DNA of 64,000 nucleotides from Ascidia mentula (Eukaryota; Chordata; Ascidiacea; Phlebobranchia; Ascidiidae), in assembly GCA_947561715.1 (NCBI GenBank), contig OX387200.1, positions 20,214,501 through 20,278,500 of the forward strand, written 5' to 3'. Every line of letters starts with the position of its first letter. The first letter of the stretch is position 1. A program made the position numbers and the translations under genes. The notes beneath the pieces are model-generated. The model did no database searches and was not told where the DNA came from. It worked only from the letters and a program-made list of their open reading frames with translations. Below, one piece after another: positions 13,884-41,620 of the stretch.

Positions 13884-16800
13884 ATGAAAATCCAGATCGG
13901 TAGTTTGCTTTTACTTCTGCTCACTGATCGCTCGCTTGGGTTTTACAAAACAGAAGAGTGTCCGAAAAAATCCCAAGAGCGCCTGTGTATGAATTTATGC
14001 GTATGCGATACTTTCGGCCACTCCATACGCAAATCCGCAGGTTTGTAAGATAATGTGTAAAACCAATATATACTGCACTGATATGTAATTATATAATAAT
14101 CCGTATCAGTCTTTTGACACTGAACTGTAAAAGAATCAGTCTGTTTAAACAATGCCAAAATATCAAAGTACATGTAATATAAATAAAAAAAACAAGGCAA
14201 GATTTTGGGGATGACGCATGTGCTTCTTTAATTGTGGCAGTGGACTTCGGTAAATTGGCAAATCTGGTTCACCTTTATATGAAGTTTGAAGAAAGCCTTG
14301 AACAAGGTGAACTCTCTTGGACATTTGACGCACAGAAGGTGGCAGACATAGCAGCCAACATGACGGTCACAGTATTTTACAGACCAAAGTAAGTGGGTGT
14401 TTAAACAGTAAATACCAACGTCATGTCATTATGGCTTGGGACCGCTTACGTTTTTGGCGTTAAAAATACCCTGTAAGAAAAATACCCTGCTATCCGCTAT
14501 AATTGCTATGACTGGTTTTAAGACAGTGCCACATCAGAGGCTTACCCTGTAAGAACTGTCAAAAAACTTAAATCCTGCGACAAATGACCAGATGTTGTTT
14601 TGAATCTTCCAGTGTAGATGGGCTTTCGGCAAAATACGCAACTCCTGTTTCAAGCTGTTGTCGTGTTCCTCTCACGAGAAGAAAATGTGCCTTAGAACCC
14701 GAGCCTAACGGGATTTACAACGTTGGCCATTCTTTGAACGAAGAAATGCTTGTAACGAGGAAAGAAATTAACGTTTCAGGTTAACCTTATTGCCTATAAT
14801 TCAGTGATTTTTAAAATGTGCGTCACGACCCCCGTGTGTGTCGTCGTGAATTTCCAAGGGCGCGTGACAATTCAAACAAAACAAATTGAATTTGTTTGAG
14901 GAGAAAGCAGGCATACAAGAAGCCAGTTTAGCCTTACGCAACTAAAAATTTGAACAACTCGTCCTGATTGAATATAATTGGTGCGTCGTAGTTTCCACGC
15001 ACAGAAGTTTGAGAACCTCTGATTCAATAGTTCACAAACAATTGTTCAAAACCTGTCGGCGTCCAGTAAACAATTAAAATACAGTACTTACTTTAAAAAT
15101 TTTCAAGGGTAAAACAAATTTAAAACATTTGTAATACTGATAATTACCATAATTTTCAAATATGAAAGCTGGAATAGAATGAAAATTTAGAACGGAGAGA
15201 TTAAAACAATCCGTTTTCGAACATATTGCTTCTTTCGAAAACATCTTCCATGTATGATCTTAAAGTTTCAGAGATTGTGGAAAAAAAAGAGCTGATATGC
15301 AGGTGGATGGACAACTCTACCCAGTTCTGTATCTACTTCAACCAAACTTCTGGTGCCATGAAAGCTAAAAAACTAACCAAGGAGCATGGCGGAATCAACG
15401 GCCATACCTACACGAAGGACCGAGTACAACAAAAGATGTTTTGCGCGTACCAGCTGCCCGAAAGTAAGCTCCTTGTTTTATTGAAAAACATAGTTAATCA
15501 TCTCAGTTGCTATGACAACGATGAACGGTCAGGTGCACGATCAACGATTTTTTTCACATAAATTGTTTCTGATGCTGCCAGGCATATTTTAATGCTGAAT
15601 ACTGCCCTTCTGCCAAACTTTATTTTATTTACGTTTCACAACGTTTCGGCTGTCATGCAACAGCCTTCATCAGGAGAAAGAATGCAAGTTTAACAAAGTG
15701 GACACATTTTACAATGATTTTTTTCACATTGTAATCCACAAACACTAAAATGCAGGATATTAATTATGACAAATCGCCATACTTCAAAAACCAATATATT
15801 ATATAGGTCTGGTGTTAACGAAGAGCACGAAGCTTGCCGAAAACCAGCTATTGAACGAGTTTTTCAATAGAAATGTTTACGATATCACGACGTACTGGCG
15901 AATGGAAGCGAGAAACAACTGCACGCGCCATGAGCTGGAAGTGGACGAACATCTGTACTTTGAGACCGAACGTGGACATCTGTTGTGTTTCCGCTTTGGT
16001 AACATTGAACAAACTGAAGAAGCGAAACACTACTGCATGCCTGGAAATGGTAAGAGGTAACACTATGTTAAAAATATTCCACAGTTGCAACCCATTGGGT
16101 TAGTAGAAAGTATGTATTTCCATCCGTTCCCAATTTCAGCATCTTATATCAAACTTTTAGAAACAGGCATAAAACCAATGAAAGCCACAAGGACAGAAAA
16201 TCCAGCTTCAGAAGTCACGACAATTTTATTGGTGATCGGAGGTGTCATCTTGGCCGCTTTGCTGGGGTTTGCTCTGTTCGCTTTCTCAATGCGAATCCGG
16301 AGTCACATGAAAAGCGTGAAGACCCTCCCACCTAACCTGGTAGGTGGATATGCGTGTTCCTTTTTAGGCACGTTTGGAATATTCTGGTTCGGCCACGTAT
16401 TTTCTTTGTTAAAAAAGTGCCACCTTCATAACTCATTTGCATCTCTCCAATAAGAAAATGAAATTCATTTGTTGCTTGCGCCCATTTTCGCCTTTTCAAG
16501 TGTCTTTGTGACTTTTATGCGTGTGCGAAAAAAGTAATCCTATGCACATTTGTAGTCGGAATTGTACAATGAAATCGATCGGTTCCCAAGCTGGGATGTA
16601 ACCACTGGAGAAGAAGGCGGTGAAAAGGTGGACCCTTTTTCTTGGAAGAAGTTTGTTGCTCTAGGTTAAACCTTTTTCTTTGAATACTAGTGGTGTTGTA
16701 ACTACTTAGCTCTCAGAAAGGTTATAAACAGTTTGGGCAACACAGGCATTCGAATCCTCAAAATTAAAACTCGAGGTTAAACACAAAACGCATGGGATAA

Positions 16801-18811
16801 AAAACATCCTCCATACTACTTAAAAAACAGGAATAAATTGTTAAAACTAAAAAGTTTCAAAAATACCGGTGTTTAGAAATTGTCTGCGGTATTAAGGTCC
16901 ACTGCCATTACAGCCAAGCTGGATCAGCCACTTTTCCGGACAAATGGGAGCGAGATCTATAAAGATTAAGCTTCAGGTCAGGTTGAACTCTCGACCCTGG
17001 GCTAACCAGGCCCAACGCTCTACAAACTGAGCGACAGGAGCTTAGCGGTTTCACGGGGTATGTTGTGGAAAAGCTACACTAGAGCGAAAGTGCAGATCTT
17101 GTATTCGCAAATACGTGGGGATCTCCACTAACGTAATCAGACAAAGCAGAAGTGTTACCATTCTTTCGCATAAAAGGAAGGATCGCCTCACCTTATCTGT
17201 GGTCCAAGAAATTAACAAGAAACATTAGTTGCAGTAAAAGCCCCGACTGTCACTCTTCTGACTGTGAGCTGTCAAAACGTCAGTAGGTTTTGTCTTAATT
17301 AGGAAAAAGGGGACGAAAAGTTCACCAATGACGACACAAATGTTAAAGGAATTTATTTTGCAACAAAAGCCTTTCTCCAGTCGATGTCTTCTGTCACTGT
17401 CGTCACTGGCACATGCACTACTTAGATGCGAATCAATAAGCTTATCTCAATTTAAAACAACGATACCAAAAATCTAAACTTTAGTTTCCATAGGAACACC
17501 CATCGATTTAATGGATCGTCGGCGCCTGTAGTTACGGTCGCTCCACCACCAAAATAATCTATCACATTATTATAATGTACATACAATAAGCATTTGTTTA
17601 AGAGACACTGGATCGACTTAGAATCACTCGCCAAGATTTGTGCAGAGCAATTTCTTGTTTGGTTTCAAGACAGGATATTTACACGGGGTGACAAATCTAC
17701 TTGGCTGCATCCGGCATTTCATTTCAAGATTTCAACCCTGTTGTTTACATTGGTTTATATTCAGATGATGGTTCCACAAATAAACAAAAGTCTACGTTAC
17801 GAATTGACAAACATACAGGGTCGGATCTTCATTGTGCTGAGGAGACGTTTCCCCTACAAGGTGGGAGTTTGTAAGCGATGGTAAATAAATGCAGAAGCTT
17901 AATTCGTCGTGGTAGTTATTAGAAAATTGTTTCTTGGTTCGTTACCACTCGGGGCGTATTCTGAGTACCATATATCACATGGCGATCACCCAAATGAATA
18001 GATGCTAAGCGCTCTGTGCTGAGTGAAACGTTTTTCGTGTTTTTTCATAGATGTATAGATCTTATCCTTCAATGTAATTAATTTGGTTTCTTCTGCATAT
18101 GCTACAGTGATGAAGCAGACAAGTGTTCTTGAATTATTCTGCTTATTATTTATCATTAGTGAAAAAAGTGATTGCTAGGACTGACCTAGATTATCCAAGA
18201 TACTGTGTAATAATCTAAGTCAGTTCTAGCAATTACTTGCTTTATATCCCCAAGACCAATCAAAGTTGGCAGTGGGAGATGCATGCTTTGTATAAACATT
18301 TCTAAATAATGTTATTACTATTATGAATATCATTACAGAAGCTTGATTACTTCCTTTACATGCAGGCGGTATTTACTATTATAGTCAACAACCAGAACCA
18401 GTTGAGGGGGCATACACAGCGGTTTCCGACAGTGGATTGCAAACCGACACAAGTTCTGGCGCCGACTCATCTGGATCCAGTGGAAGTTTCTCTCAACAAG
18501 TGTGTTTATCAGAGATTTCTGAAGACACTGGACGCGGGTCTTCCACCACTTGCAGCGACATCGAACTTGATGCGTGCGAACATCGGTACAAAATCCTAAA
18601 ATCCACCGACACTAATCAATTTGATACCGGCCACCAACCGAAAGCTTTCCCGAGCAATGACGACGTGTTTTTGCCAGTTGTGCCCGATGTCACTTGTGTT
18701 GGAGATTTTCCTGAGCCTGGCACGGAGTTACAAATATTTCAAACACTTTTTCTTAAACGAAGCGGCGCAGACTTGGCTCCCGGCCTCCTGCCACAATGCG
18801 ACCACATTTAA
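13884..18811 (+). CDS. R1: class II cytokine receptor-like type I membrane protein
   Basis: Nine exons join without a stop: 13884-14040, 14241-14388, 14613-14779, 15272-15463, 15807-16049, 16161-16339, 16556-16664, 17765-17860 and 18366-18811 (578 aa). Residues 1-19 form a signal peptide. Exons 2-3 resemble the first FNIII domain of interferon/IL-10 receptors: ELSWTF, then NMTVTVFYRPK at the exon end, then paired cysteines in SCCRVPLTRRKCALEP before IYNVG. Exons 4-5 resemble the second domain: YDITTYWR, then LLCFRFGNIEQTEEAKHYC. Membrane helix about 322-346, box1-like TLPPNL at 357-362, conserved DPFSWKK, then a Ser/Asp-rich tail with a YSQQ (YxxQ-type) and a YTAV tyrosine site. Intron phases are 1-2-1-1-1-0-1-1. 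There is no WSXWS motif, which argues against class I. Ligand unknown; JAK/STAT signalling is inference. The ATG at 13884 was chosen because the signal peptide follows directly and R2 matches it. Confidence 0.6.
15605..15676 (-). repeat. Repeat with hammerhead-ribozyme-like core, R1 intron 4
   Basis: Read on the minus strand, CTGATGA is followed by the hairpin GGCTGT/ACAGCC, then GAAAC, then the short hairpin ACGTT-GTGA-AACGT ending in GTA. This is the order of a hammerhead core: CUGAUGA, stem II, GAAA, stem III, UH cleavage site. One extra A lies next to stem II and stem I is weak, so the copy may be inactive. Such cores are known in Penelope-like elements and retrozymes. Its left flank (15564-15595, TGCTGCCAGGCATATT) recurs at 44517 in the MS4A-like gene. 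Confidence 0.4.
16975..17045 (-). repeat. tRNA-derived sequence (pseudo-tRNA or SINE head), R1 intron 7
   Basis: On the minus strand the D arm is perfect (GCTC..GAGC, A-box-like TCGCTCAGTTTGTAGAGC). An anticodon arm follows, with TGGGC/GCCCA and loop CTGGTTA (GGT, Thr-like). Then comes GAGAGTTCAACC, a weak B box. The T stem and the 3' acceptor strand do not pair, so this is not a functional tRNA gene as read. Confidence 0.4.
18168..18236. repeat. Near-perfect 26-bp inverted repeat (hairpin) in R1 intron 8
   Basis: Left arm 18168-18193 (starts GTGATTGCTAGGACTGACC) and right arm 18211-18236 are reverse complements with about 3 mismatches around a 17-bp spacer. It is AT-rich and lies in the intron before the tail exon. 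It could be a MITE core or an RNA hairpin. Confidence 0.7.
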
Positions 18812-19003
18812 GTTCTTCACTGTAAATACGGGGGTTACAGTGTCTTTCAATGTTATTACAATAGTGTAAAAAATGTCCATGTCTTGCCACCTGTCTTTGT
18901 TGCGCTTTCGCTTCTGTTGTAAATTTTTCTCTGCAAACAATGTTGCCCTCACGTGTAAACTTTAGTATAACGTTTACGAACCATATGACATGAGCCAATG
19001 TTT

Positions 19004-19009
19004 AATAAA
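19004..19009 (+). terminator. Candidate poly(A) signal of R1
   Basis: AATAAA occurs 193 bp downstream of the R1 stop codon, a plausible 3' UTR length. It is the first consensus hexamer I see after the stop. Confidence 0.4.
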
Positions 19010-22000
19010 AAGATATCGCTGCTTGGCAGAGCCAGGCTTGCACTGTTAAATTTCCAAAGCGCCTTCTCTGCTCACAAATTTATTCTGCATCTAAGGTATT
19101 TCTTCTCGAAATTTGCTTTTATTGAAAACTTTAAAGCAATGCCGCAGGTGACACGTAGTTATGTACACAAACATTTTTAAGTCATACAGTTTCCACGAAT
19201 GGTAAAAATCTTGTACATTTTTGTGGAAAATCTTCGTGTTCAACGTATTGAAATCTATAAATTGAAGTGTGTTTTTTTGTGATTTAAAAGGAACGTGAAA
19301 AGGTTTCCAACATAGCAAAGTAACCAGACTCAACCATCAGCTGCATTTGTGAGAGTTTATAGGTCGAAAAGTTGTGAACTACCTGCAGCTCAAACACACG
19401 GTTGTTTTGTAAGCGAATGGAATTTAACAGAGAAATTGATGCAAAATACAACACTTGCATTCAATTTTCTCACTTGCAGTTCGCGCCGCAGAAATATGTG
19501 GGTTCAGTTAAAAGCAACCATTTTAAACGTGACGCGTGAAATGACAGTGGAACAAATGTTGTGGCTACCAAGCTCTTGTCAATGTTTGTCAACTAACTAT
19601 CCAATGACCATTTTGTGTCTCGACTTCATATATTTTACGTAATCTAATTTATTACGCTTGATTTTTGGTTACCAGCGGCTTGTGAAACTGATTTAGTGTT
19701 TAACCATGGAGCTTTGATGTAGCCTTTCTCCCACATGAAACTTAACCAAATTTCGGTTTAGAAGCGATTTTTACCAAGTGTGAATGCTTCGCGGGCGCTG
19801 CGTAAAATTCGATTTCTATTGTGAATTGTAAATCGTATCACGTGACAGCACAGACGGCGGAAAATAAATTTTACTCCGTTCAGTACAGATTTTTTTTCTT
19901 TACCAGGATACTGCTGGTCTTTTACTCACTCGATCCCGAGGCGCAGTATCGTTGCCAAATCAATAATATCGATGAAATGATTTTTTGCTGCCTAAAAAAT
20001 TGCTGTGCCAAACAGCTGTCTTTGACCATTATGTAGAAATCCAAACCATTATGGATGCACGAACCATGTGGCAGTACCAGCATAATCTCGGGAAATAAAT
20101 TGGCTTAATTTATACGTCAATGGTTTTCAAAATCGAACTAAAACGTTTTGTTTAATGTTAACGTTCAAAGATCAAATAAATTACGTTCTGCAATTTGTTT
20201 TGAATATCCCTACTCGCGCCTAACATTGTGCTAATTAACCACCGGCCAAGCGCATTTGTCTGTTCATTGTAGAAGGTAATAACCTTAAACAGAATTTGAC
20301 GCGAAGTATTCCACGATTTGGGCGATTGTAGGAGTGCGAAACAGTTACACTTTCAGATGATAACCTGCATTCACGGAAAGTTATGCAGGGTAAGTTTTAC
20401 GGTTGAAATCATGCAGTGGGTCAATGAGTGATGGATTGACACACCAGTAGCCATTGAGTGCATAACAAACAGCGGATGCAACTCACATATTTTTGCTGGG
20501 AACCTACGCGGAAGGCAGGATGTCACAGCACCTGGTACATCGGTTTTCTTTCCTTCATTGTGGTGTTGTTTTTCACAGACCCTCGGACTCGTTTCGCCGC
20601 ATTTATGTCCTCATGATGTTATTTTACACAAACCTGAGTGCTGTGTGGATGCTCATACTATCAAAAGCAAGACAATCAAAAAACAAATGCTCGCGTTTAG
20701 TTTTATTGTTTGTAGTTGGGTTTGACGTACGTGTCCCCCTAACTTTAGTAACACAGCACAGGTTGTCATGTGAATACCTTCATACATTTTATAGTATTAT
20801 GCATAAGCGTTGCAGTGTTTACTGTATATCATTGTACTGAATCGTTGTTTCAGGGTTTAATATATTTTGTTTAAAACATTAGCAAATCTTGATATCGGTG
20901 TGTGTTTCTGTCGTCTTGGTTGTTTTCATAAAACCCAAGCGGCGCAGTTAGAAAGGGGGCCCGTTGTTACGTACTAATCTTTCGTTCGGGGCAGAAATGC
21001 CGTTCTTTGACTCAGCTTGACATAACATGTAATTTACGGCTATTGTCAAAAGCCAATTTTTTCGTACCATTGGGAGATGCATAGGACACACACCTGTTTA
21101 CTGCGTAAGGAGTGATGGCCCAACTACCAGACGTGATGTCTGCAGGAAGTCAAAGGTATCGCGTATAATGTGGTCAATTGAGTACGGATACGAAGGAAGA
21201 GACATGCTGTTATTCTATTCGCACAAATTATCAGACATATTCAATGCTCTATCCACGTGTGTGATATAGATGGCCCGCTCAGTTTTATCGCAATGGGAAA
21301 TGGGTCGTTAGCGTCACTGCGCTGATGCAAAGCACAGTATTAATAGGGACTTTTTATACTTGGGATTTTCCACCGCTTGTCAAACGGTTTTGAATATACT
21401 TATAATGGGCTTCGTCTTGCTCATATTTCCGATGGTCGGTGGACACATCAGTGTTTTCCTCCGCCTGCAAACGGGTTTACCCAAACCTGGCTTTATTCAT
21501 CACGCCTCGTTGAAAGTTACTGACGCTTGTCCGAGGTGAGACTAGGCCTACACACTCTTCACCCCTTATTAGAAACTGTTTGGCAGACACCCACCTGCAG
21601 GCATTTAGTTGATAAGTGTTTCATACATAAAAAACTGCCCAATTCTTATTCCATGCTGCAATGCCTAAGATTACTCGACTTATAAATGCATTAAATAGAA
21701 ATAATAAAAAATAAATTAATTTAAAGTATAAATGTCAAAGAGACATTGTAGGAAATGAAAATGAAAAAAGAGTCTACGTGAAATGCCAACCCGGTCGTAT
21801 TCCCGCGCATGTTTTTTGGATCGACGATAATGTATGGACGGGTCGATGCGACGGCCAAAAATCAGCACCGAAATAAGATTATCAAAATAACACGCGAAAT
21901 CATTTAGTATTAAGTGATCAACGCAAATCCAATTATAGTACCTGGGGTTGCAGGTGCACCCCATGAGTAGGTAGTAACAAATCAACCTGAACATGTTATT

Positions 22001-23188
22001 ATCTATAACAACCTGCAATTCGAGCTAACTTCAAGCCCGACTGCATCGACGCAGCATTCTAGACGCATGACGCAAAAAAGGCGCGTGCGTCACCACTTCG
22101 AAGCGAATTTTTGTTTCCGTGCAAGGTTACCCCATTTAACTCTGATCCAGTAGCGAGATAAAACACATAATCATTTCAGGTTCGAGTTGCCTTTACTTTT
22201 GGTGCGTGTGGTTCGACGTAATATAGCATTAGAAAGTTACAACTGAGCTTCAGTGTCTGATACTTTTGGGACCGCAAAGAGTTCTTGTCGGAAGAGTCAA
22301 ATAGCTCGTGTCAAAAAACATTTGATAAAATCCTAGACAAGGAAATGCGTCTGAGAATCTGAGATTGATCACTGATCTTTCGCTCGGTTAAAGCAGTCAG
22401 TGAGGCTTGAAAGGTAAAAGTTACTTTCATGAAAACAACAGGTTGAGCGTTATGTGCTGATATTCCGTTTGCGTTGATATGTTTCTCGAGAGATTTGTCC
22501 AGTAAGGGAAGCACTAAACGCATGTAGACCGAGATCCAAGTAAATGTACTGGATATATTTTGTATCCTATTTGAATTTGTAACTGAACACTTTTGTGCCA
22601 CGTCCGAATTTCACTCCAGTGTAGACCATAAAGAAAAAAAAGAGTTGGCCACTTAGTGGGGGTTTACGAACAATACAAGGAAGTGGTGGTTGACTTGCTT
22701 GGTTTTAAGTCGACAGGTTACATCACTCAACCATTGCGTGGCATGTTGTGTTAATCATGTTCTCCTTCCTAACCCGCGGTGTTATATGCCGCCAAAAATC
22801 GAATCCAACCACGACTTGCATTGTTACGGTTCTTATTAATGATGGGTTTATATTGAGGCGCAATTTTTCCATGCATTAATAACCGCTACCACGCGCTGGA
22901 AACAGCAACGGGAAGTTGTAGCAATTATCGCAACCCGAAATCAGAAATGATTTCCATAAAATAGGCTACAAACCTCAGTCGTACGTTCGAATCGATTGCT
23001 TTGTCGATTCTTTGCCGGTCATTGTCGATCTGTTGGGTATGGGTATGCCCTATACTGAATACCAAACAACAGAGACGAACCACTGTGGAGCGCACTACGG
23101 CCAACAGATCGACGTTGACCGGAACGGTACCACAAAGTGGATTTTAGTGTGCCTGCTAGTGTAAAAGCCAGCACAGTGCCACTGCAAC

Positions 23189-23248
23189 AGCTGCACTGAT
23201 GAGACCTTACAGGTCGAAACAGTGCGTGTACACACCCTGTCTGCAGCT
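23189..23248 (+). ncRNA. Type I hammerhead ribozyme, well-formed copy
   Basis: All hammerhead parts are present in order. Stem I is AGCTGCA (23189-23195) pairing perfectly with TGCAGCT (23242-23248). The catalytic CTGATGA follows. Stem II is GACCT-TAC-AGGTC, then GAAA. Stem III is ACAG...CTGT, closed by a long loop, and the cleavage triplet GTC ends at 23241. Self-cleaving type I hammerheads of this design are known from small animal retroelements (retrozymes). It sits between the receptor genes inside a dispersed repeat whose other copies in the window are mostly damaged. Activity is predicted from the core only. Confidence 0.8.
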
Positions 23249-26193
23249 CGCCAATATCTTTGACATGACTTATTGACATATGTTAGCTATGGCGAAGTAA
23301 ACATTCTAAACTTTGGTTGACTTTGGCTATGCAAAGGCTATTCCAGAAAATACTGACGAAATTATTGCCGTTAGTAAGCACACTTCGCTTCGCATCGGAA
23401 TATACTACGGGTAACGGGCATTGGTGTACCGACTGCTATTGGCAAACTATTTTTTACGGAGAACGACTTTTATCTTGACCAAAGTGTTGTTTCGTTTGCT
23501 GTGATCGATGAATCATTTAAAATTCCAGGGTAATATAGATTAGGACTGCTGGCATTTCGAAATCCAAACTTTCCGCACGACCGAGCGTAAAGATAGGGGG
23601 TCGCCTATTGTAACCTCTTAACTTTACAAGTAACAACATGTTCAAGGTAATGCTGGTGCCTAAAAAAGACCAATCTTCAAATCGGGTTTACTGTAGATTT
23701 TCAAGTCAGGTTGTACTGTAGACTTGTAAACTTATATAACCGCGAGTTATGTGGCTAGGTTTACTGTGTTACATATGTACTCGTTAATAATTAAAGCAAG
23801 GTGATGGAAAGCCTATCACAAACGAGGAAACGAGAGAAACAAAATCGCCTTATCATTTTTATACAAAACAAACTCGTTTCTTGTTAATAATTCATCATGG
23901 CGAAATAATTTTGACAGTTTTGTTTTCGGCTTGTACCTGACACTATAACCCATCTTTCCCTACAAATCGAGGGGCCAAAGCTGACGTAACGTAAGCCACT
24001 CGTTTTGCTTCGGCCTCAGGAAAACCTCATTCATTTTGCTAAATCAATTGAATTGGGTGAATCACGATACGTTGCAATGAAGTTCGACGAATGAAGTAAA
24101 TATTTGGTCAGCAGTGTATGGAGGCCGGTGAAAGCGACTTGCCTTTTTCATCATAAAGAACAGTCGCTATGGAATGACCGATGCCGCTATTTATTAAGAT
24201 AGGTTTGGAGCAATGACGCGACAGTATGTTTGTGAAAGAACAGCACTTGTACCAAGATGTATAACCAACAGTGGATAACAAACAAATACCGCCTGGTAAC
24301 TTGTAGTCATTGCAGAGATTCAGTATACCTGCACATATAATCTATAAATGTGAGTGTGTTTTCGCATAGCATTACAAAATCGGTTAGGAAGTCGTCTTTG
24401 ACAACAAGGCTGCGGTTAGCTATCTTTGGCTTCTGACCTATGTTGTAAATTATTCAACCCAGACACACCTTTGTGGTTGACGAAACAGGTCTTAGTCAAG
24501 CCGAAGGTAAATGTAAGTGTTGTGAGGGATATTGCTTGTATGCGTGTTGGTTTTTATATTTCTTCCAATGCTCATACCAAAGTCAAAAATACAAATCTAG
24601 TATTGTTGCACCGTTATCTTCAGCACCCATCAAAGTTTTTCTGAAACATGGTCCCAAACCGTATCCTTAGGCTTGTCAATTATCGAATACAAAACGCCTT
24701 CCGAGGTTTTCGTTTGCCCAGTAATCGGATTAGTGACATTCGTATGGTAATCTGACGCCGACTGGTACCTCTTCCTCGTTGTTGTGCTCAAAAGTTGACC
24801 CACGTTTGCTTTTCGTGTGGTAGCCTACAGGTTGAAGTTTCTCTGCGTCCAAATGTTTTACAGATACAGTTAAATGTTCCAAAACGCAACAAGAACAGAC
24901 AACGGTCGCGTATATCGGTAGTCTGAATCAAATTATAAGCAGTCAGGTTTCATTGCGCAATTGAGCTGCTGCATTTTTTGCAAGTGGTCAGGTGTGCTAT
25001 AGATCATGGACAATCAGAACATCAAACGAGAAAGTACATTTCTGACAATAAGTGATATGGTATCAGAGAGTTATGTCTCAAGGATCTCTCAAAACACATC
25101 ATTTAAACATGAAAGACAACATTGACCTACTCGATTACGATTTGTCTTTTCCACAGAGAGCGATTCCCAACGGAATTCTTAGAGTTGATTTAATTGCCAC
25201 TTGTGAGTTTGTAATTAGCTTCGTCTCGTCAATAATGTTGTAGGAAAATCGTTCCTTAATATAATCTGAGCTCCGCCTTCTCTCATGTGGTTGCAGCGCG
25301 ATATTATATTGTGGTATCTGCACGGTTGCGGTCAACCCTTTGCAATCTCTTCCTAAGTTGAAATTTAATTCGGTAAACACTGCATCAATTCCCATGGATC
25401 ATGGATGTTATCTACTTGCCCAGCATGAATTAGCGGTGACAACACGTCAAATATCGCTGTCTTTCCGTGAAAAAAAGGTCACGATGATGTACCTTACCCC
25501 AAATATGCCTAAATACCGGTTACCGCATTTTTGATGGACAAAATGATACAAAGGGAAGTGATTTGAAACTTCCTCCTCATTTCGCACATCAAATGCATCT
25601 GTTACCTTATTACAAAGTTATGATACAATTATTGTTGAAAAGTCACCCAGTTTTATTTCCACATGTTGGCCACACGTTATATATATATATAAGACTATGT
25701 AAAATTAGAGATCAGAATAAAAGATGGATAAAAGAAGGGAATGCGTTAAATGTTTTTCGTGTTTCCCTGGGGGAACATCTTTTAACGCGACACATACTTT
25801 GCAAGCGGCAGTCGTCATTAGTGTCAGTAGCACGTCGATACGCACTTTGTCACTCTCATTACGTGGTGCATCACTCTACACAGCGCAGGTAAAAGGCAAA
25901 GGGATTCCTTAAATGTGCTGCAGAACAGGCTACGTTGCGTTCTTTCTTCAGTTGTGGTGAGAGGACAGTTAAAAACAGAGAAGCGACGATATCTCTAATT
26001 TTTATATATTCTGCATTGTAATATGGAACGCCACAGTAATTTTAAAAACATGCGCAAATAAAGTATCACTATGTATAGACATGATGCGCGTCTACCCACA
26101 AGCAAACAGCAATTTCTTTGTAGTTGCGCATAGAACAGAAAATTCGCAAAGCAAATACCACATACCTTGCTGTGCGACGGCAGTTGGATGCGC

Positions 26194-26210
26194 TTCCTGT
26201 GCTGCGGTAA
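26194..26210 (+). promoter_or_regulatory. 17-bp element shared upstream of both receptor genes (R2 copy)
   Basis: This is identical to the element at 13454-13470 and stands at nearly the same distance (417 bp) before the R2 start codon. Confidence 0.3.
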
Positions 26211-26610
26211 AGCAAAATACCCTCGAAAATTACGTGGATGGTGATCAGGGTTTCTTTGTGTGCTTAACGGTAGCTATTCTACCATCCTGCTGTGCGGTAT
26301 GATTGTTCAAAATTGAATAGTGTAGTTACGTATCTAAAGGAGGTAGAGAAAATCTCCATATTGCCATAAATTACTTTGGTAAGTGTGCGGACATGTTGGT
26401 GTTGTAGTGTTATGAAAAGACCAGTCATAATGTTCTGTTCAAATCAACAGCTTCGCTTTAATGCCGCCAAGTAGCTGCATGCTATACGTAAGTTAGGTTA
26501 CAGTAGTTGTGATTAGCTTCTAGTGAGCGGCTAAATCACACCCATACCTCGCGATGTTATACTGCTAACGATTATTTTTATTTCTTCGTAGCCGTATTGC
26601 TTACAAAGAA

Positions 26611-29600
26611 ATGAAAATTCACTTCTATTACCTGTTTTTGTTTCTAATGATGGCTGTAAAGCCGTCGCGTTCTGGGGGATATCGCGAAGTAAAGGAATGT
26701 CCGAAAGGAGTTCAAAGAAGCCGGTGCGCCAACCTTTGTATGTTCAGCCAAAGCACCAAGCTGTATTTAAACAACAGAGGTTTGTTGTGTTTTTGCGTTT
26801 GCTCATCAAACCCGCACTGTACCTTAAAACTGTTTTCTCTCACTCGCTTGTCGTTTACAGCAAAATCCTTGTATTTTGCGGAAAAAACAACCACGCGGAC
26901 GAACAGAATTTAAACGAATGACGTCTGTCTTTTTGCGTAAAAAAACTACTTGAAACAGTTCTTGTGCCTTGATGTATTGGCAAAAACTCTTAAAGGTTCA
27001 CATTTACGTTACATGCGTACACGTAAAACTGTTTAAAATAAGGTTCAGGGGCTCAGTAACGATTTTGCAGTTTCTTTAAGCCAATCGTTTACTATAATTT
27101 TTAACAGCGGACTTCGGAATTCTTGTTAGGACTAACAATAAGATGATGTTTCGGAGTCGCCTGAATAATAGCGAGGTCACGTGGAGATTCAAACATGTCT
27201 CAAGTTTAGTGACCAACATTTTGGTCACAGTTTTTTTCGAATCAAAGTAAGTGTGCTTCCCTTTTTACCATTTTATATACCATAAACTTGGTGTCGCTGT
27301 TACTTTGCCTGGTTTTCTTGCATGGGGAACTTACATCCCACACTTTTTCAGAAAAAACTAGATCTCTGCAAACCATTCCATATATATCCAAAAACGACTG
27401 ATATCACCTCATGATTCTAGGGCCAAACTGTATAATTTGCATCACATTTTCTTTACCCAGGTTCGATGGAAACCTGGCAACATACGGGACTCCAATTGCA
27501 AGCTGCTGTCGTGTGCCCATCGAACACGGGAAATGCAATTTGAAAGCTGACCAATCTGGCTTCTATTACATTGGACTGTCTTACAATAACGAAACGTTTG
27601 CACTTGCAAACCCATTCCACGAAGTGGGTAGGTACTGGTATTTAAAAAATCGTGCTTCACTCTTAATACGTTTACCGGTCGAACGTTATTAAGTAGACCT
27701 AAACACAAGACGCTATTCCAATATAAACACTCTCCATTTGGGGTCTCTATACAACTATTAAATTCTTGTGTTTGTCAATGCAGAGGACTTGGCAAAGCAT
27801 GCGGTTGGGTGTAGATTAATCGACAACATCACCAAGCTGTGTCTCTTCATCGACCAAAAGTCTGGTGCGATGCAAGTGAAAAACCTCACCGTTAACTTAA
27901 TCGCTACCAACGGCCAAATATACAGTCGGGATAGAATTGAACAAAAATTGCAAGACTTTTGCGCATACCAGTTGCCAAAAAGTAAGCGTCAATAATTTGA
28001 TATTCGTAAAGATACAGAGCGTTTTTCCCGATTTGTCGTAAACGAGAGGCTAAACACTGTTCAATATCAGTTAAACATAACTATTCATTTTCTGTTATTT
28101 TCTCGTAGTTATCATTGAGCGGTTTTTATAAACTCCTAAATCGATTGAGAGAAAGTTTTCATGAGAGAAAGCGGACACCGAAACGTACTTATCTATGTAT
28201 TGTGCAGATGTGGTACTGAAGAATGGCATGACGCTTGCTAACAAACACCTCCTGAACGCGTTTTTCAATAGAAATGTTTACGATATAACAACGTACTATC
28301 GTAAGGAGGCGAGAAACAACTGCACGCGCCATGAGCTGGAAGTGAACGAACATCTGTACTTTGAGACAGAACGTGGACACCTGTTGTGTTTCCGCTTTGG
28401 TAACATTGCACAAACTGAAGAAGCGAAACACTACTGCATGCCTGGCAATGGTAAGTTATGACAGCAATACAGCAACCACCTGTGTTACATAACCTAGCAA
28501 ATACGTCACGTATTCTTTTCTTAACACTGGCTTCCTAATTTTGCCAGAATCTGTCTTCTAGGCATTTGCCAATTTAACAATTTATGTTGATAGTAGCCAA
28601 TAATTATTGTAATGTGGTTTGAGCATATAAGTTAGTCACGCTTTAAATTACTTTACAGAAACAGGCATGGGCGAAATACCGTCCCCCAAACCCGTAAATC
28701 ACCCGTTGGAAGTCACAGTAATCCTATTGGCGATTGGAAGCATCGTCCTGGTGACTTTATTTGGGTTTCTACTTTGTTCTTTGTCGTCGCCAGTTAGGAC
28801 TTACCTTCAAAGCCTGAAGACCCTGCCACGTAACTTGGTATGGTTTTTATCATTTATTACTTGAATCTCAATGTTCTCTGACTCTGTTTGCAACGGGTTT
28901 CTGCGCATTACATTCCGAATAGTGTTGATGCTCATTTCGTATACAGGTGGAATTGCAGAAAAGCATGGACGACCAACAGAGTTCAGATCGGTTTTACGAA
29001 CACGAAAAAAGCGACGAGTTCGAACCTTTTACTTGGAGAAAACCTCTTCCAACAGGTTACGACTGCTTTTAAATGCGAATGGAAATTTTGTACTAAGGCT
29101 AGATAATTGCATACAATAGTTTTGTGCTCAATAAAATGGATTTTACGCTAAAAAATTGGTTTTTACGCTAAATACAATAGTTTTGACGCTGAATAAAATG
29201 GTTTACGCTTCCTTCGTAGGCTTTTAGTTGTAGGACTAACATTCAAACAAGCCAAACGCAAATGCTCATAGCGTAACTACGTTACTACATGAACCATGAT
29301 TACACGGCGTGATTTTGGCGCAACAACGGTGTATGTACCGCAAACAGTAGAATTGCTGTTTGTACAACGAAGAGAAAACCGCAGTGCATTTGGTCGTAAC
29401 AGCGCAAAACATTACGGTTTGCAGTTCTTGGAAATATACTCTTGCGGGTTAGAGAGGTTTAAATCGACGTGAAGGTTCAATGCACGCAATTCCGGTCTGA
29501 CTATACACAAAAAAGCATTCTATTCATTTATTATCTTGTACCATTCACGATTTGCGCAGCGTTGCCCATAACCGATGTCATTTGGGGATAACTCACAATC

Positions 29601-30483
29601 TGAGGTTTTTCGTTTGTGTCTTTTCGGTATTGTTCGCAACCACGACCGACTGGGTGTGAAACCCATTCACATTCGCACGCAAGAAATTCGCAAATAACGG
29701 ACAAATCATTTTTTAATAGATGACCAAAGTAGCTTCAAGTTCTCTGTAAACGACGATGAGAAAACCAGAATACAACCTGATTATGCCGAAGAGGTTCCAT
29801 CAACAAGAGGTGGGTGATTCGGTTTTTATGTAATGTTTGTGAAGAGTTTTATGTTCTTGATCTACCCAAAGAATTTAAACGCCTTACGTGTGTAGAAAAC
29901 CAAAGTTCACAGTTCTGGAATTGACTTAAAACCAACAATGGTCCATAGGCCGGCGTTTCCAAACCAATAAACGTACGCACTGATTGCATGTTTTGCAGAA
30001 AGAAGATACATTCGCTGCCAACAACCCGAGCCTGTTGAGGGGGTTTACACAGCGGTTTCCGACAGTGGGTTGCAAATCGACACAAGTTCTGGCATCGACT
30101 CATCTGGCTCCAGTGGATGTTTCTCCCAAAAAGGTCGTGGAAATCGAGTCTGTTTATCAGAGGTCTCTGCAGACACTGGACGCGGCTCTTCCACTTCCTA
30201 TAGCGACAACGAACCTGATGCACCTGAACACCAGTTTAAATCCATAAAATCCGCCGGCTTAAACACCCTTGATACCCGCCACCAACCGAAAGTTTCCCCG
30301 AGCAATGACGACGTGTTTTTCCCAGTTGTGCCCGATGTCACTTGTGTTGGAGATTTTCCTGAGCCTGGCACGGAGATCAAAATATTTCAAACACTTTTCC
30401 TGAAGCGAAGCAGTGCAGATTCTGCTGTGGGGTGTGTGTCGCAAAGTGTGAACATTCCAGACTATAGCGTACTACAACACTAA
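26611..30483 (+). CDS. R2: class II cytokine receptor-like type I membrane protein, paralogue of R1
   Basis: Nine exons: 26611-26779, 27108-27246, 27461-27627, 27784-27981, 28208-28450, 28659-28837, 28947-29055, 29720-29809 and 29999-30483 (592 aa). The exon order and every intron phase are the same as in R1; exons 3, 5, 6 and 7 have identical lengths. Leader about 1-24. Domain 1 shows EVTWRF, ILVTVFFESK and SCCRVPIEHGKCNL; domain 2 shows YDITTYYR and LLCFRFGNIAQTEEAKHYC. Membrane helix about 325-348, box1-like TLPRNL at 360-365, EPFTWRK, and tail tyrosines in DYAEE, VYTAV and DYSVL near the end. Exon 2 and the first half of domain 2 differ strongly from R1, whereas exon 5 and part of the tail are nearly identical. 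Intron 7 carries a repeat copy (29130-29415). Type II cytokine receptor is my best call; an unrelated tunicate-specific receptor with FNIII-like folds cannot be excluded. Confidence 0.6.
29130..29415 (+). repeat. Copy of the ~410-bp dispersed repeat inside R2 intron 7
   Basis: The stretch containing AGCGTAACTACGTTACTAC, CAACAACGGTGTATGTACCG and GTAGAATTGCTGTTTGTACA matches units at 40.6-40.87 and 41.03-41.28 kb with few changes. It contains the hairpin AAACAG..CTGTTT. No coding capacity is seen. Confidence 0.75.
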
Positions 30484-32164: not shown

Positions 32165-35100
32165 TTACGAAATGACGCAACCGTCGTTCTTTCTTCTCTG
32201 CGAGAAAGAACATGTGTAAACAAAATTAAAAAAAAACATAAAAAACTCAAAATTTGCGAAATCAAAACAACAATAATTCAGCAAAAACAACAAAATAAAA
32301 AAAAACAACTAACCTTATTCATTTGATTCATTTGTTGACGCATCAATTCGAGACTTTTTTCGGTGCGCTCCCTTGCTGCTTTTGCATCCTCATAACGGCG
32401 ATCGTCTTGAGCCTTAATCGCATCGAACATCTTTTGTTGCTGCTGTCTCGCAGCCTGTGAGTCTCTTTCTCTGGCTTCTTGCTGTTGTTTGAATGCTTCT
32501 TTTTGATCTTCGTAGCGTTGGCGATCACGTTCAGCCTCCTGTTTGCGATTTTCCTCCTGTATTCTGTATCGCGCCTCCATTTCCTTAAACTGCTTTTTTG
32601 CTTCTTCCGCTTGTTGCGAGTTGTCATCTGCCATTCGACGAATTTCTTGTTTTTGCTCCTGAAACCGAAGTTTTGCCTCCGCTGCTTCTCTCTTTCTGGC
32701 AATCTCAGCTTCTTTGTACAATCGCTGTTGTTCCTCCAATAGCCTTTTTTGATCCTCTGCATCCTGTTGTCTCTTTTCCTCTGCTTCTTGAAATCTTCTT
32801 TCCTGCTCTTCAAGACGTCTCTTCATTTCCATCGCCTCTTTAGCATGTTGCTCCGCCGCTTCTTTCATTTGCTCCTCTTGCTTCTTCATCATTCCGCTCA
32901 ATAGGTCTTCGCGATGCTTGGCAATCTTCGCTTCGTCTTCCCGTCTGTTTTCCGAGTCTTGCAGCTCCAACTTCTTGGCATAATACGAGGACATTGCGTC
33001 GTAAATTTCGGCGATATCGATCTCTAGCATGTTTCGGTAATCAACAATCACATCCCCTCTTCCAAACTTGGAGATGTTGTCAAATCTACCCAGTGTTTCA
33101 AGAAGAAGGAGTTGGTGGTATTGATACAGATCTGCCAGCGAGCCAGTGAAAGTTTCCAAAGTCTGTTTGCAATTATTACAATTAATATTCTCAATAAAGG
33201 CTTTTAAAAAAAGTTCTGCATACTAACGTTTTTCATGTCACTTTCGTACTGTTTCTTTTCTTGTTCCATCAGTTTTCCCAGTTGAAACTTTGCGACGGAC
33301 TGAAATACATCAAATTATCAGTTGGTACAACCCCAAAACCGTTTCAACTTGTTACATATGAAAATAAAATCATTTTTTACCCTTTAATTATCTTTAAATG
33401 CAATACAGTTTTTTTATTCTCAAGTCCTTCCATGTCTTACTATACCTCACTGAGTGTATAAGGATCTGGAACTTGATCACTTAGAAGATTGTCACAACAA
33501 GTCGAAACATAATCGAAGAGCTGTTCCCCATTCATTGGCTTTCCATTTAAATCAAGTGGAGTAAGATTGGATTGCAGGTACTTGAACAGATCTCCGGCGT
33601 GTTGCAGAAATTGATTTCCGGCGGCTGTACAGTAAAGAAATAGCCAGTTAATGAGTATAAGATTATTAGCAGTATTACGTATGTTGTTACAGCCTAAATC
33701 GATTGGCTTGTCTTCCTCCTTCCGTGACGTCACGCTTTTGTCGGGGGTCGGCATTCCAAACGCTTTTACAGAGGTAAAAACATGTCTCAAATTACGGATA
33801 TTTTCGTTCACCGACGCAGTTTTGTCGTCCGACTCTTTGAGTTCTTCCTGAAGATAACGTTCCCCTGCTTGGATTCCAAACCCGTAATCAGGAAAAGGGA
33901 AATCCCGTATCAGGAAAAGCAAATTCTGGTGGGGATCGACAAAATGTTCAAGGTCATAGATGTGCTAAACAAAACGAATCACAAACCTGAAAAAACGCTT
34001 CGTCTGCTCCGCTGTTCACGTATTTCGCTGTCTGTGTCCAAAACTGTAACAGTAAAAAATACTGGTGTATTAGTCACGTACGAAATAATCATTAAGGTCA
34101 TTTATGGTGAAGAGAGTACCCCCCAACTTTCTCCATATATCACAGTTGCACGTACAAAGAATACATGACAAATAGCCTGTTTTTTTTGTACCTTTCTGTA
34201 AAAATACCACGGTAAGGAAACACATCACGGTCAGGTATTCTAAACAACTCTACTCTGTAGGATGTTTCATAATTAGGATGTGGTTGCCAGTAGCACAAAA
34301 GATACTTGGATTAACAAACAAACAACAAACCAAGTGTGTGAATCTCTTGGTATAAATCAGTATTTCTCTTTTTTTCTGTACCGCCTCCCAAACACCTTAG
34401 TCATTTAACAACGCCAAACAGAACAGACAAAAAACACAACGAATATATTTGTTGCTTGTAAATTATTGCGATGAGTGAGGTTAGTGCAATGACACCAATT
34501 TCTCAATACAAGGTTTCATGTCGGACAAAAACAATCGTAAGTCTCCTCAATTGTCGATATCAAGACGATTTCTTTTCCATCTAAAAAAGTGGTGAATGCG
34601 CTGAACGCACGTTCCACCAAGTAAGAGCTGAGAAAATTACGGAAAGGTGCTCGCGTACCACCTGGAATGCGGTTATACATACCACTAGTGGTAAACGTAC
34701 CACCGGTTGGGAAACACAGACTTACGCTATAAGAGAAAATGTTCCACTTTCTACGTATTTTGCAGTTTGTGTCCAAAACTGAAAGGATAATACGATTGCA
34801 AACTCCCCCAGGGGGGCTCAGGCGCCCACTTTGGGAACCACTGGTATAAACGGTACATCACTTACGTCAAGGTATTCGAGGTCGTTCGCTTGTATTTGAC
34901 GCATCAGGTTGAACACGAGGTGTGAGCTCATGAGAGTGGCGAGAGCAAATATCTGAGAACATTCCTTCTTCGACGTTTGGCTGTCGAACATCCCTTGTGT
35001 GTCCATCAAATACAATGCAACCTAACAAGCAAATGTTATGCATTATTGTGTGTCTATGAGTAATAAAGCCACCTCGAACCAAAGCAAATGTTGCAAGAAC

Positions 35101-35799
35101 AACAAGTAACGAATTTCTATATGACACATGAAAAATGCTGTACATATAACAATCAAGCAATAATACGCTAGGTGGTGACCATGGGCTTTTGTCAAAGAGG
35201 CGCATCAAAAGCCATCTATTGTCAGATAGTAAATATTGATACACTACTTTCTCGTTAGTCTGCTTATGTTTAAAATTTAATGACTCACTTGGCCATTCGA
35301 TGTGTTCACCATAATAGGTCGGTTTAAAATCCATATTCCTTCAGTGTTTCGCTTCGGGCCTCCTCTCCAATCAAACGCTGCATGCAGACCTACTTTGCTG
35401 CCCCACATGTACGACAACGTAGATTTCTTCGGCAATCCCTGAACACGTGTTTTTTTGAAAAAAATAGTTGTAAAGCTTGTTCTTGACACTTCTCTGCCCC
35501 CAAACCAATTGTAGAGTAACGTAAATACGAACCAACATGCTCACCTTGACAAGGAACTGCAAAAACATGTTAAGAATGAACGACTTTCCTTTTCGTTTAT
35601 CGCCACATATAGCTATTAGAGCAACCGGTTTGTCCCAGGTCTTCTTTAAAACTGTTTTAAGTCCTAATGTGTTGAGCTCTAATACATCATCCGGGCCCTT
35701 CACGAGCACCTGAACAGTATCGTATTCGTCTGCGAACAAAAACTTGCTTTAATCGAAGGTAACAACAACATAGGTTTAAAATGTGCACTTACCTTCCAT
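32165..35799 (-). CDS. Gene A: atlastin/GBP-like large GTPase with coiled coil and CaaX tail
   Basis: Ten exons: 35793-35799, 35545-35729, 35289-35438, 34866-35021, 33987-34043, 33691-33925, 33446-33624, 33228-33299, 32314-33162 and 32165-32197 (640 aa). GTPase motifs: P-loop GDKRKGKS 45-52, WRGG..RNTEGIW about 88-100 (switch I), DTQG 121-124, and the RD guanine-specificity motif in LLFLIRDF near 192. Spacing and WRGG..TEG are atlastin-like; the fold belongs to the GBP/atlastin dynamin superfamily. Residues ~350-630 form a Glu/Arg/Gln-rich coiled coil in place of atlastin's membrane hairpin. The last exon adds RRKNDGCVIS, a polybasic CaaX box like those of prenylated GBPs. The first coding exon is only 7 nt. 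Intron 4 contains a hAT-like insertion. Likely role (inference): prenylated, membrane-binding, nucleotide-driven oligomerising GTPase, possibly immune. Confidence 0.85.
34358..34843 (-). mobile_element. hAT-like insertion in gene A intron 4, with a stray exon-5 copy
   Basis: The minus-strand end reads CAGTGGTTCCCAAAGTGGGC, typical of hAT terminal repeats. The other end starts CAGTATTTCTC (8 of 11 matching). Flanking 8-mers GTATAAAT and GTATAAAC look like a target-site duplication with one change. Inside, minus-strand frame 34516-34700 encodes FLSSYLVERAFSAF, resembling the hAT transposase C-terminal dimerisation region. The block also holds a second, broken exon 5 (FWTQTAKYVESG, about 34737-34784) closer to gene B than to gene A. 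A second TIR-like GTTTCCCAACCGG near 34703 suggests nested insertions. Confidence 0.5.
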
Positions 35800-37046
35800 T
35801 TCTACAGATGCTTTACAAGACTGGGCAGCATGTAAAATATTGCTAGCAAAAAAATCCTCTGCAAAACACGAAAGCGCTTAGCTATGGTGTCGCCAAGTGT
35901 ATATTTCTCCTTACCACGCTTGTTAACACACGTCTGGCCGCTTGGAATGATTTCGCAGCGACTCTTAAAGGCTGACAAGAGGAACCAACACTCTCAATGA
36001 AAGGAACTGAAACCGCTGTTTCGCCAAAGAGCGACGGCGATACGGGAGGAACCAAGATAGTCATGTGACTGAATGTTTGTGCGCCGCATGCGCAATTCGC
36101 CCATGTGCGAAAATACGTCACGTGGTATCTCGTGACAGTTTATGAAACAATCCTTTAAAGGTATATACAATCGCCCTAACGATTCTAAAACAACTGCTGC
36201 CGTTAGCAAAGGGACATAAAAGCAAACTCGAGATTGGATGGGTAATTAAACCACCCATGGTAAACTGTGAAAATGCAAGGCCTGAAATCAATATCGTTTA
36301 TTTACTGCTGTTTGTAGGCCACAAGTGATATGGAATTTTTAGTACGTTTTTTTATTTTCGGGTGCACTGCTTTCAAGGACTTTTGCAATTCTGTACCTGG
36401 CGACTGTTCCGCTTGTTTGCCTATAGCGACTTCTCGTTCTGGTGACTTAAGTAGGGGGCATAATATTCCTCGAAATTAAAAAAATATATTATTGCATGGG
36501 GAGATACACAGCAAGGTTTGATGAAGTCCCTGAGAAGATGCTGTAACCAACAGTGGACCATAGGCTACACAGACCTGGGGTAAACCAACGAGTTTCTGCA
36601 AATACCTTTCTTGCAAAATCCCAATTGCTTTTTTATTTCCCTTTATTGAAGTTTGCCTATCGATTGTTTGGATATCGAAACTTGATTTAATGGAGGTGGA
36701 GATATGACGCCTTAGCACCAATTTGTACAACACCGTTCAAAGTGTATTTTTCGAAGCAGAAGCCGAAGATAACAACAAACAGATCATATCAATCTTTGGT
36801 TGCTAGCGAAACAACAAAATAATAAACATTCCGCTGCATAACATCTGTCTGATAATTATGAAGTTGTTAATTTAGCAAAAGATACCAAATTATCACAAGG
36901 CAAAGACAGTGTACCAATACAGAATTGTAGCAATATTTACATACAACAAAGTAACCACAGAATGAGGAACCAAGTCGTACTGGATCAAAATGCGCTAAAA
37001 CGTGAATCAATGTACACATCAAAAACACTGTGAGACACATAAGCGT
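35800..37046. other. Gene A promoter region and spacer to gene B
   Basis: No coding exon is supported. This contains the 5' flank of gene A with the ISRE-like motif at 35999-36012. The right end (around 37.0 kb) is the 3' flank of gene B, whose AATAAA (minus strand, 37045-37050) overlaps the stop codon. Confidence 0.5.
35999..36012 (+). promoter_or_regulatory. IRF/ISRE-like element upstream of gene A
   Basis: GAAAGGAACTGAAA contains AANNGAAA, the core bound by interferon regulatory factors, and a second GAAA half-site. It lies 200 bp upstream of the gene A start codon. AAGAGGAACCAA stands just before it. Gene B has both motifs in the same order in its own upstream region. Confidence 0.4.
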
Positions 37047-39885: not shown

Positions 39886-40147
39886 GATCCCAAGATTTAT
39901 TTGCGTCTGAGTACAGTTATTCGGTCAGTTACTAACTAATATCTGAAAGTCATGCAAAATACTTGCTGTAACCAAAACGAGAACGAATGTACGAAGAACT
40001 AACTCTGTCCAGGACACATAAAGCTTCAGAATCACATGACGATAGTATCAGCTGAAAGGTGGCAAGCACATTCCACACCAAAGAGGAACCAAAACCAAAG
40101 TTTTGCACTGCTTTGTCGCAATCGCAATTCCCTCGTGACAAGCTGGC

Positions 40148-40162
40148 GAAAAGGAACCGAAA
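40148..40162 (+). promoter_or_regulatory. IRF/ISRE-like element upstream of gene B
   Basis: GAAAAGGAACCGAAA is close to the gene A element GAAAGGAACTGAAA, with one inserted A and one C/T change that leaves AANNGAAA intact. It lies about 263 bp upstream of the gene B start. AAGAGGAACCAA is at 40081-40092, as in gene A. Confidence 0.4.
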
Positions 40163-40470
40163 TTAATCTCGCTTGCTCCGCAATCAAGTATATTCGACAT
40201 CCAATTCTATTAGCTTATCAAAACACTCAGCTTAAACTGATATGTAATATTATAATATCATTCCTTATGAGATAATGTTTTCACAAGCTGCACAGACAAA
40301 CACTCGCATTTTCAATACTTTCGGTGGCTATGATATGCTTGTAATCATGAGCCTATGTTATGAGCAAATCGTAATAATGGCTTCTTTGTATCTCACAACA
40401 GAAAGGATACCGCGACCAGACCATTTCTCTCCAATGCTAACATCGCGTAGACACTCTCCATACAGAGAGA

Positions 40471-41432
40471 AGGCGACAGCTTTACGATGACGGCATTTGA
40501 TAAGGATTTTCGATATCTCTCGTGTATCTTCAGCTCTTGATCGCACTTAATCGTTTCGGTTCCTGTTTGGAGTGCTTGCACCAAATAGGGACATGTCAAA
40601 AGATAGATGATTGGTTCGTTTCCACGCTAAATACAGTATAGTTTTACGCTTCCTTCATGGGACATTATGAGGCTTCTAATTGTACCGCTTATATTTAAAT
40701 AAGCCAAACGCAAATGTTTATAGCGTAACTACGTTACTACTTGAACCATGGTTCCAAGTCGTGGTTTTTGCGCAACAACGGTGTATGTACCGCAAACAGT
40801 AGAATTGCTGTTTGTACAACGAAGAGAACTCCGCAGAGCATTTGGTCGTAACAGCGCAAAAGACTCTTAAAAAACAAAGGCGACAACTTTAAGATGACGG
40901 CATTTGATAAGAAGGCTTTATGGGCTTTTAATATCTCCCGTGTAACTTTAGCTCTTGGCGGTCTCAATCGTTTCGGTTCCTGTTTGGAGTGCTTGCACCA
41001 AATAGGGACATGTCAAAAGAGAGATGATAAGTTCGTTTCTACGCTAAATACAATATAGTTTTACGCTTCCTTCATGGGACATTATGAGGCTTCTAGTTGT
41101 ACGGCTTATATTTAAACAAGCCAAACGCAAATTTTCATAGCGTAACTACGTTACTACTTAAACCATGGTTCTAAGTCGTGGTTTTTCCGCAACAACGCTG
41201 TATGTACCGCAAACAGTAGAATTGCTGTTTGTACAACGAAGAGAAAACCGCAGAGCATTTGGTCGTAACAGCGCAAAATACTCTTAAACAAAGGCGACAA
41301 CTTTACGATGACGACATTTGATAAGGAGGCTTCATGCGCTTTTAATATCTCTCGGGTAACTTCAGCTCTTGATCGCTCTCAATCGTTTCGGTTCCTGTTC
41401 CACCAAATAGGAATATGTCAAAAGATAGATGA
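40471..41432 (+). repeat. ~410-bp tandem repeat, about 2.4 units
   Basis: Unit starts marked by AGGCGACARCTTTA occur at 40471, 40878 and 41292 (periods 407 and 414). Each unit includes AATCGTTTCGGTTCCTGTT, a CACCAAATAGGRAYATGTC stretch, TTTTACGCTTCCTTCATGGG and GCGTAACTACGTTACTAC. A single related copy sits in R2 intron 7 (29130-29415). Open frames inside are shared by all units only because of the duplication and match nothing known. Confidence 0.8.
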
Positions 41433-41570
41433 TTAGTTCAGACCACAAAACAAGACTCAACGATTACCTGATTTGCATTTATACCATAAACCATCCTTCT
41501 AATTTCGGATTAAATTTAACAACCTTTGATACAACTGAAAGATGTTATAAACTGTTTTGTTTTACAGTGG

Positions 41571-41620
41571 GCTGCAGACAGGGGCACTGTTTGGACCTAA
41601 TAGGTCTCATCAGTGCAGCT
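41571..41620 (-). repeat. Hammerhead-family repeat copy with mutated core
   Basis: On the minus strand it reads AGCTGCA, CTGATGA, stem II GACCT-ATT-AGGTC, then CAAA in place of the required GAAA, then stem III and GTC, and TGCAGCC. The G-to-C change at the conserved GAAA should abolish cleavage. About 100 bp of downstream-related sequence (41621-41725) also matches the 52.9-kb copy. Confidence 0.7.

Follow-up and report, generated by a model that had tools for sequence, protein, structure and literature searches.

The 64,000 nucleotides of the Ascidia mentula genome analyzed in this study (NCBI GenBank assembly GCA_947561715.1, contig OX387200.1, positions 20,214,501 to 20,278,500 of the forward strand; referred to as the window, in whose numbering positions are given) contain two tandem genes, R1 and R2, which are real genes and belong to a real family: a small, fast-evolving tunicate family with a two-part ectodomain, a single transmembrane (TM) segment, and a tail. 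The proteins are receptor-like, and they are plausibly coupled to JAK. The reading that we favor, to which we give about equal measures of trust and doubt, is that they are fast-evolving tunicate single-pass receptors, JAK-coupled and descended from the D200 cytokine-receptor superfamily, with no class assigned. The original prediction had placed R1 and R2 in the class II (interferon/IL-10 type) cytokine receptors; this assignment was tested, and was not supported by sequence.

R1 (13884-18811) and R2 (26611-30483), both on the + strand, each consisted of eight coding exons (546 and 562 amino acids when spliced, respectively), the edges of which were placed by hand on DNA alone. All 14 introns had an AG acceptor and a GT donor, and the frames were open up to an in-frame TAA stop. 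The exit phases were 1-2-1-1-1-0-1 in both genes; the tandem arrangement and the phases 1-2-1-1-1-0 originally predicted were therefore reproduced, with one further exit phase (1). In R1, exon 1 (13884-14040; exit phase 1) encoded the leader and an N-terminal cysteine stretch; exon 2 (14241-14388; phase 2), the first half of ectodomain part 1 with an invariant tryptophan; exon 3 (14613-14779; phase 1), a CC-x8-C motif; exon 4 (15272-15463; phase 1), a C-x9-C pair and the beginning of ectodomain part 2; exon 5 (15807-16049; phase 1), the best-conserved piece of part 2 with three invariant cysteines; exon 6 (16161-16339; phase 0), the stalk, membrane helix, and juxtamembrane LPPNL; exon 7 (16556-16664; phase 1), the proximal tail; and exon 8 (18366-18811, the end of the stop codon), the tail with YYSQ/YSQQ, YTAV, DSGLQTDTS, and C-terminal DFPEPGTE. 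R2 followed the same plan: exon 1 (26611-26779; leader and N-terminal cysteine stretch; phase 1), exon 2 (27108-27246; phase 2), exon 3 (27461-27627; CC-x8-C motif; phase 1), exon 4 (27784-27981; C-x9-C pair; phase 1), exon 5 (28208-28450; phase 1), exon 6 (28659-28837; stalk, membrane helix, and LPRNL; phase 0), exon 7 (28947-29055; phase 1), and exon 8 (29999-30483, the end of the stop; tail with YTAV, DSGLQIDTS, and C-terminal DFPEPGTE). Acceptor-like sites 42 nt (R1) and 19 nt (R2) upstream of the ATG were compatible with putative trans-splice sites.

The exons of R1 and R2 are coding and constrained, because every one of the eight exon pairs had a ratio of nonsynonymous to synonymous divergence (dN/dS; pairwise Nei-Gojobori) below 1; from exon 1 to exon 8, the ratios were 0.27, 0.62, 0.27, 0.29, 0.27, 0.45, 0.52, and 0.40. 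Exons 5 and 8 had dS values of 0.33 and 0.44, respectively, compared with 0.92 to 2.20 across the other six exons, and this low synonymous divergence relative to the rest suggested gene conversion between R1 and R2. Exon 5 of each gene was located inside a conversion-like tract (15794-16054 in R1 and 28195-28455 in R2; 87% DNA identity), the ends of which were at most 13 bases from the exon edges, and 82% DNA identity was found in exon 8 between 18386-18771 of R1 and 30019-30419 of R2. The identity of exon 7 was just 28%. Judging from divergence alone, exons 5 and 8 look like pieces homogenized by gene conversion or by strong homogenization at the DNA level, and the tail and the ectodomain exon close to the membrane appear to be kept alike, with divergence in the N-terminal part.

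When the host genome (195.8 Mb; the window sits on the contig referred to as C67) was searched in six frames with R2, 23 matching places were found at E ≤1, all within the window or on contig C71; the weakest of them, on C71 at 12.1 Mb and in a single exon at 2.384 Mb, had E values of 0.017-0.026. At least three further loci of the family were found besides R1 and R2. P3 and P4, in tandem at 2.39-2.41 Mb of C71, were modeled in full with spliced frames open to the stop, and differed little from each other (dS 0.045, dN 0.035, ratio 0.78; 555 codons compared). P5 (C71, 12.11 Mb) was also modeled in full. P1 (C71, 2.38 Mb; 2.381-2.387 Mb) was modeled through the TM exon: the ectodomain and TM segment were found, and no tail was found when exons were modeled at this locus, such that P1 could be a decoy or merely an unfinished model. 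P2, near 2.39 Mb of C71, was limited to part 1, with exons 1 and 2 modeled and exon 3 seen via tblastn. A search with P5 gave an extra partial locus at 10.25 Mb of C71 with 83% identity across 111 tail residues, which also had a 48% match carrying two stops, and a search with P1 gave just one weak extra place (C69; E 0.047). A six-member alignment (A1), which is shallow (Neff 2.6), was used for family comparisons; the five other aligned members showed 24-54% identity to R2. Since phases were imposed during the modeling of the paralogues, their exon phases represent consistency, not independent proof.

A single strong TM segment was detected by hydropathy in R1 and R2 (2.87 and 2.84, respectively), in agreement with the one membrane helix originally described, and the box1-like LPxNL motif was confirmed as LPPNL and LPRNL after it. 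One TM segment and a juxtamembrane [LV]PxxL/V motif were present in all five members with modeled tails (R1, R2, P3, P4, and P5), the corresponding residues being VPPEL in P3 and P4 and LPVMV in P5, the last of which depends on the chosen end of exon 6. The predicted tyrosine-bearing tails were also found in R1 and R2. The R1, P3, and P4 tails had YxxQ, and those of R2 and P5 did not; DSGLQxDTS was carried by R1 and R2, and P3, P4, and P5 had no DSG. The R1/R2 sequence conforms to DSG(X)2+nS, a consensus cited in PMC3210801. DFP[EQ]PGTE was found at the C-terminus of all five modeled tails, and this conserved end suggests that the tail may be functional. Regarding the leader, the claim stood on inspection by eye; a hydropathy scan over 19 residues picked it up in two of the six members (P3 and P1), neither of which was R1 or R2.

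Under the favored reading, the two-part, cysteine-rich ectodomain would bind a ligand that is either secreted or attached to a cell. Binding would drive the chains to pair, and JAKs docked at the [LV]PxxL motif next to the membrane would thereby come into proximity; tail tyrosines, once phosphorylated, would attract STAT or another SH2 protein. We regard the family as probably JAK-coupled, and perhaps a distant cousin of the D200 cytokine receptors; this descent would be reflected in the gene plan, which comprises a leader exon, two exons for each half of the ectodomain, a TM exon that exits in phase 0 past the box1-like motif, and tail exons. The same genome also carries genes for JAK and STAT. 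Two tandem intronless JAK frames (1,143 and 1,104 residues) were found at C71:8024001-8034000, both with FERM matches and two kinase stretches, and with a Pfam SH2 match in the first frame only; STAT exons were found on C71 and C2. One JAK and two STATs were reported for Ciona in PMC3296744, compared with two JAK genes here.

Several results weigh against the favored reading. The juxtamembrane motif arose in 6-21% of shuffled juxtamembrane 40-mers and is, because of this chance level, weak by itself; its weight rests on retention in all five modeled tails. The modeled part of P1 had no such motif, and the tail motifs were not uniform, YxxQ and DSG each being present in some members only. No detectable kinship was found to the profiles of class I, class II, or IL-17 receptors, and WSXWS was found in none of the six family members. 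A fold model was obtained for exon 5 only, and its mean pLDDT of 37 says nothing on the fold.

The first alternative is that R1 and R2 are true class II receptors, the sequences of which drifted past profile recognition; we regard this as unlikely, although it has more behind it than the others. The family resembles class II receptors (IFNAR, IFNGR, IL-10R, and tissue factor) in its leader, two-part ectodomain, one TM segment, and the order of cysteine pairs in the first and second ectodomain domains (D1 and D2). LPxxL resembles the class II box1. Phases of 1-2-1-0-1-0 were described for most IFN-upsilon-R1 genes, as for other interferon (IFN) receptors, in PMC8863823. R1 and R2 agreed with this pattern at five of six introns, and intron 4 alone differed (1 versus 0). 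Class I receptor genes have similar intron phases, and phases may thus fail to distinguish the two classes. The D1 sequence C-x8-C-x-hydrophobic resembles C-x7-C-[DN]-hydrophobic, a C...C pair closes part 2, and a tryptophan is located in the presumed strand B, assigned by eye; the order of the tryptophan and C...C in part 1 and of the closing C...C in part 2 was conserved across the family.

The spacing and number of cysteines differed from class II, and of the family-like cysteine positions originally proposed, the order was retained while the spacing was not. The yardstick was 12 human class II ectodomains, the sequences of ten of which are provisional. The D1 cysteine gap was 9 in all six family members versus 8 (the C'-E pair) in 11 of the 12 human chains, and the gap of the last D2 pair was 12-16 in all six (an extra cysteine in P3 splits its pair) versus 20-25 (the F-G pair) in 11 of the 12, IL-22RA1 being the exception. 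The ectodomain of R2 contained 12 cysteines, and nine cysteine columns were invariant across the six members: two N-terminal, the CC doublet with its partner cysteine, a single column in exon 4, and three in exon 5. The family has an N-terminal cysteine stretch, and five to eight more conserved cysteines than the four of class II. The ectodomains, as cut, were also longer (258-306 versus 201-228 residues). In a crude propensity count, the family had 35% strand and 16% helix, compared with 34% and 5% in the class II set.

Sequence searches did not favor class II either. No relevant Pfam family was matched by single sequences or the six A1 members; PF01108 and PF09294 in particular were unmatched in all six members at E ≤10 (filters drop most matches above 0.1), and neither was matched at this locus in the genome searches. 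PF01108 gave nothing genome-wide, and the controls were silent too. Two weak genome matches of PF09294 (C71:19.81 Mb) were considered as a second class II gene and rejected, since by eye the frames look like repeats of a gene rich in FN3 (fibronectin type III). PDB searches gave chance rows only (one E of 1.7 and two of 0.54-0.57). In a collection of 5.8 billion proteins, the tunicate share of which is not known, candidates that shared words with the queries numbered 4,785 and 5,186, and no match at E ≤1 was found among them. The HMM-HMM comparison proposed with the original prediction was performed as hhalign on the alignment of spliced ectodomains, with scores judged as z against column-shuffled profiles, and class II remained at the shuffle level. 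The family gave a probability of 0.1% against the 12 human class II ectodomains, while the class I versus class II control gave 96.9%; for the whole ectodomain, z was 0.55, and 27 of 100 column shuffles were as good. By domain, local z was -0.04 for D1 (56 of 120 shuffles as good) and 0.16 for D2 (49 of 120), and global z was -1.28 and -0.17, respectively, whereas the class I versus class II controls reached 10.3 and 18.4 (local) and 11.1 and 22.3 (global). In a positive control, human IL-17RA/B was aligned with the eight SEFIR receptors of this genome at z 20.8 (0 of 100 shuffles). A true shared family is thus visible by hhalign at the tunicate-human distance, and the R1/R2 family was not so recognized. 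IL-17 and class II receptors are both built of fibronectin type III domains, and hhalign between these also gave nothing: z of -0.44 (local), 0.60 (global), and 0.34 (whole ectodomain). Because this kinship was likewise unseen, the alignment is shallow, and there is no tunicate yardstick for class II, the negative hhalign result is to be read with caution.

A slightly more doubtful alternative is that R1 and R2 are unrelated tunicate type I membrane proteins with a role in adhesion, recognition, or allorecognition, in which LPxxL occurs by chance. The lack of homology in the libraries searched is consistent with this, as is the chance level of the motif per 40-mer, and rapid divergence together with gene conversion would also suit recognition genes. 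The motif was, however, kept in every modeled tail in spite of the low R1/R2 identity of exon 7, the gene plan is like that of D200 receptors, and the shared DFP[EQ]PGTE end points to a functional tail; these features argue against an unrelated origin. If the family were unrelated after all, it would represent an uncharacterized tunicate recognition family.

Derivation from class I (gp130/dome-like) receptors is improbable. Class I receptors (gp130/dome, EPOR, and PRLR) have a gene plan similar to that of R1 and R2 and share the idea of box1, and the C-x9-C pair of exon 4 has a class-I-like gap. The whole-ectodomain score was the best of the three classes, although insignificant (z 1.51, 6 of 100 shuffles as good), and D1 gave z 1.71 (8 of 120). 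On the other hand, D2 gave z -0.91, WSXWS was lacking as described above, C-x-W was absent (no tryptophan after the exon 4 pair), and there was no profile similarity. The favored reading overlaps both the class I and the class II alternatives, and the weights given to them are not exclusive.

An IL-17-receptor-like ectodomain that lost its SEFIR domain, an origin raised by the cysteine layout and length (near 290 residues, N-terminal cysteines, and C-x9-11-C opening part 2, by eye comparable to C-x10-C in the SEFIR receptors of this genome), is very improbable and was rejected on profile scores, since whole-ectodomain hhalign gave z of -0.80 and -0.92 versus 20.8 for human IL-17RA/B on the same tunicate set. 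No SEFIR match was found in the six members (P1 represented without its tail), and the eight SEFIR receptors have long single-exon frames.

An invertebrate class II pair had been proposed to bear on the origin of interferon/IL-10 signaling. PMC3210801 names one apparent class II receptor each in Ciona and amphioxus, both without apparent DSG motifs, and R1 and R2 would thus not be the first claimed; the Ciona receptor is also a point in favor of class II for the present family. Compared by description only, those receptors share with R1 and R2 an invertebrate chordate host and the claimed class, and differ in that R1 and R2 each have one DSG. Two class I receptors were reported in Ciona (PMC1963337), and few cytokine receptors appear to have been described so far in this animal, as far as PMC1963337 and PMC3210801 go. 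No tunicate family like R1/R2 was described among the matches listed, judged by title and the start of the abstract, in a literature that left most subscription papers outside. In the vertebrate sister group, a multi-gene receptor family next to JAK/STAT would directly test how interferon/IL-10 signaling arose. We tentatively raise, as a doubtful extension, that a JAK-coupled family of its own has expanded in a tunicate lineage, either an early class II branch or an independent D200 branch, in which the ligand-binding half diversifies and the membrane-near half and tail are kept uniform by gene conversion; beside genes for guanylate-binding proteins (GBPs), this would amount to an interferon-like module outside vertebrates.

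Vertebrate GBPs are induced by interferon. On the - strand at 32278-52000 of the window, PF02263 was above the cut-off in five of ten frames scanned (nine of the ten from this cluster) and below the cut-off in one more, and the cluster probably consists of three GBP-like genes. Three long frames near these genes appeared by eye to be coiled coil, with no Pfam match. According to PMC8218723, conservation of the IFN-mediated antiviral response does not extend to tunicates or amphioxus. A genome search for IL-10 ligands (PF00726) was silent, as were its controls, and nothing was found when the window was scanned for Rfam families and tRNAs. Motifs like the gamma-activated sequence and the interferon-stimulated response element numbered 33 versus 20.8 ± 4.9 and 17 versus 4.7 ± 2.3, respectively; nothing was built on these counts, because the null was a mononucleotide shuffle only (1-kb blocks).

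The genome gave 21 SEFIR matches (C69 at 18.85-19.27 Mb, C73 at 8.67-8.77 Mb, and one place on C1), an expanded IL-17 receptor-like set, with the C69 copies in long single-exon frames. The Ciona spliced leader followed by a GTA donor had 1,684 exact copies in the genome (846 and 838), and the reversed pattern had 0; the host is therefore a tunicate with a Ciona-type leader, in line with the invertebrate chordate originally supposed. In the long spliced-leader array near 15.24-15.33 Mb of C1, with units about 720 bp apart, the first places listed were mostly 719-720 bp apart.

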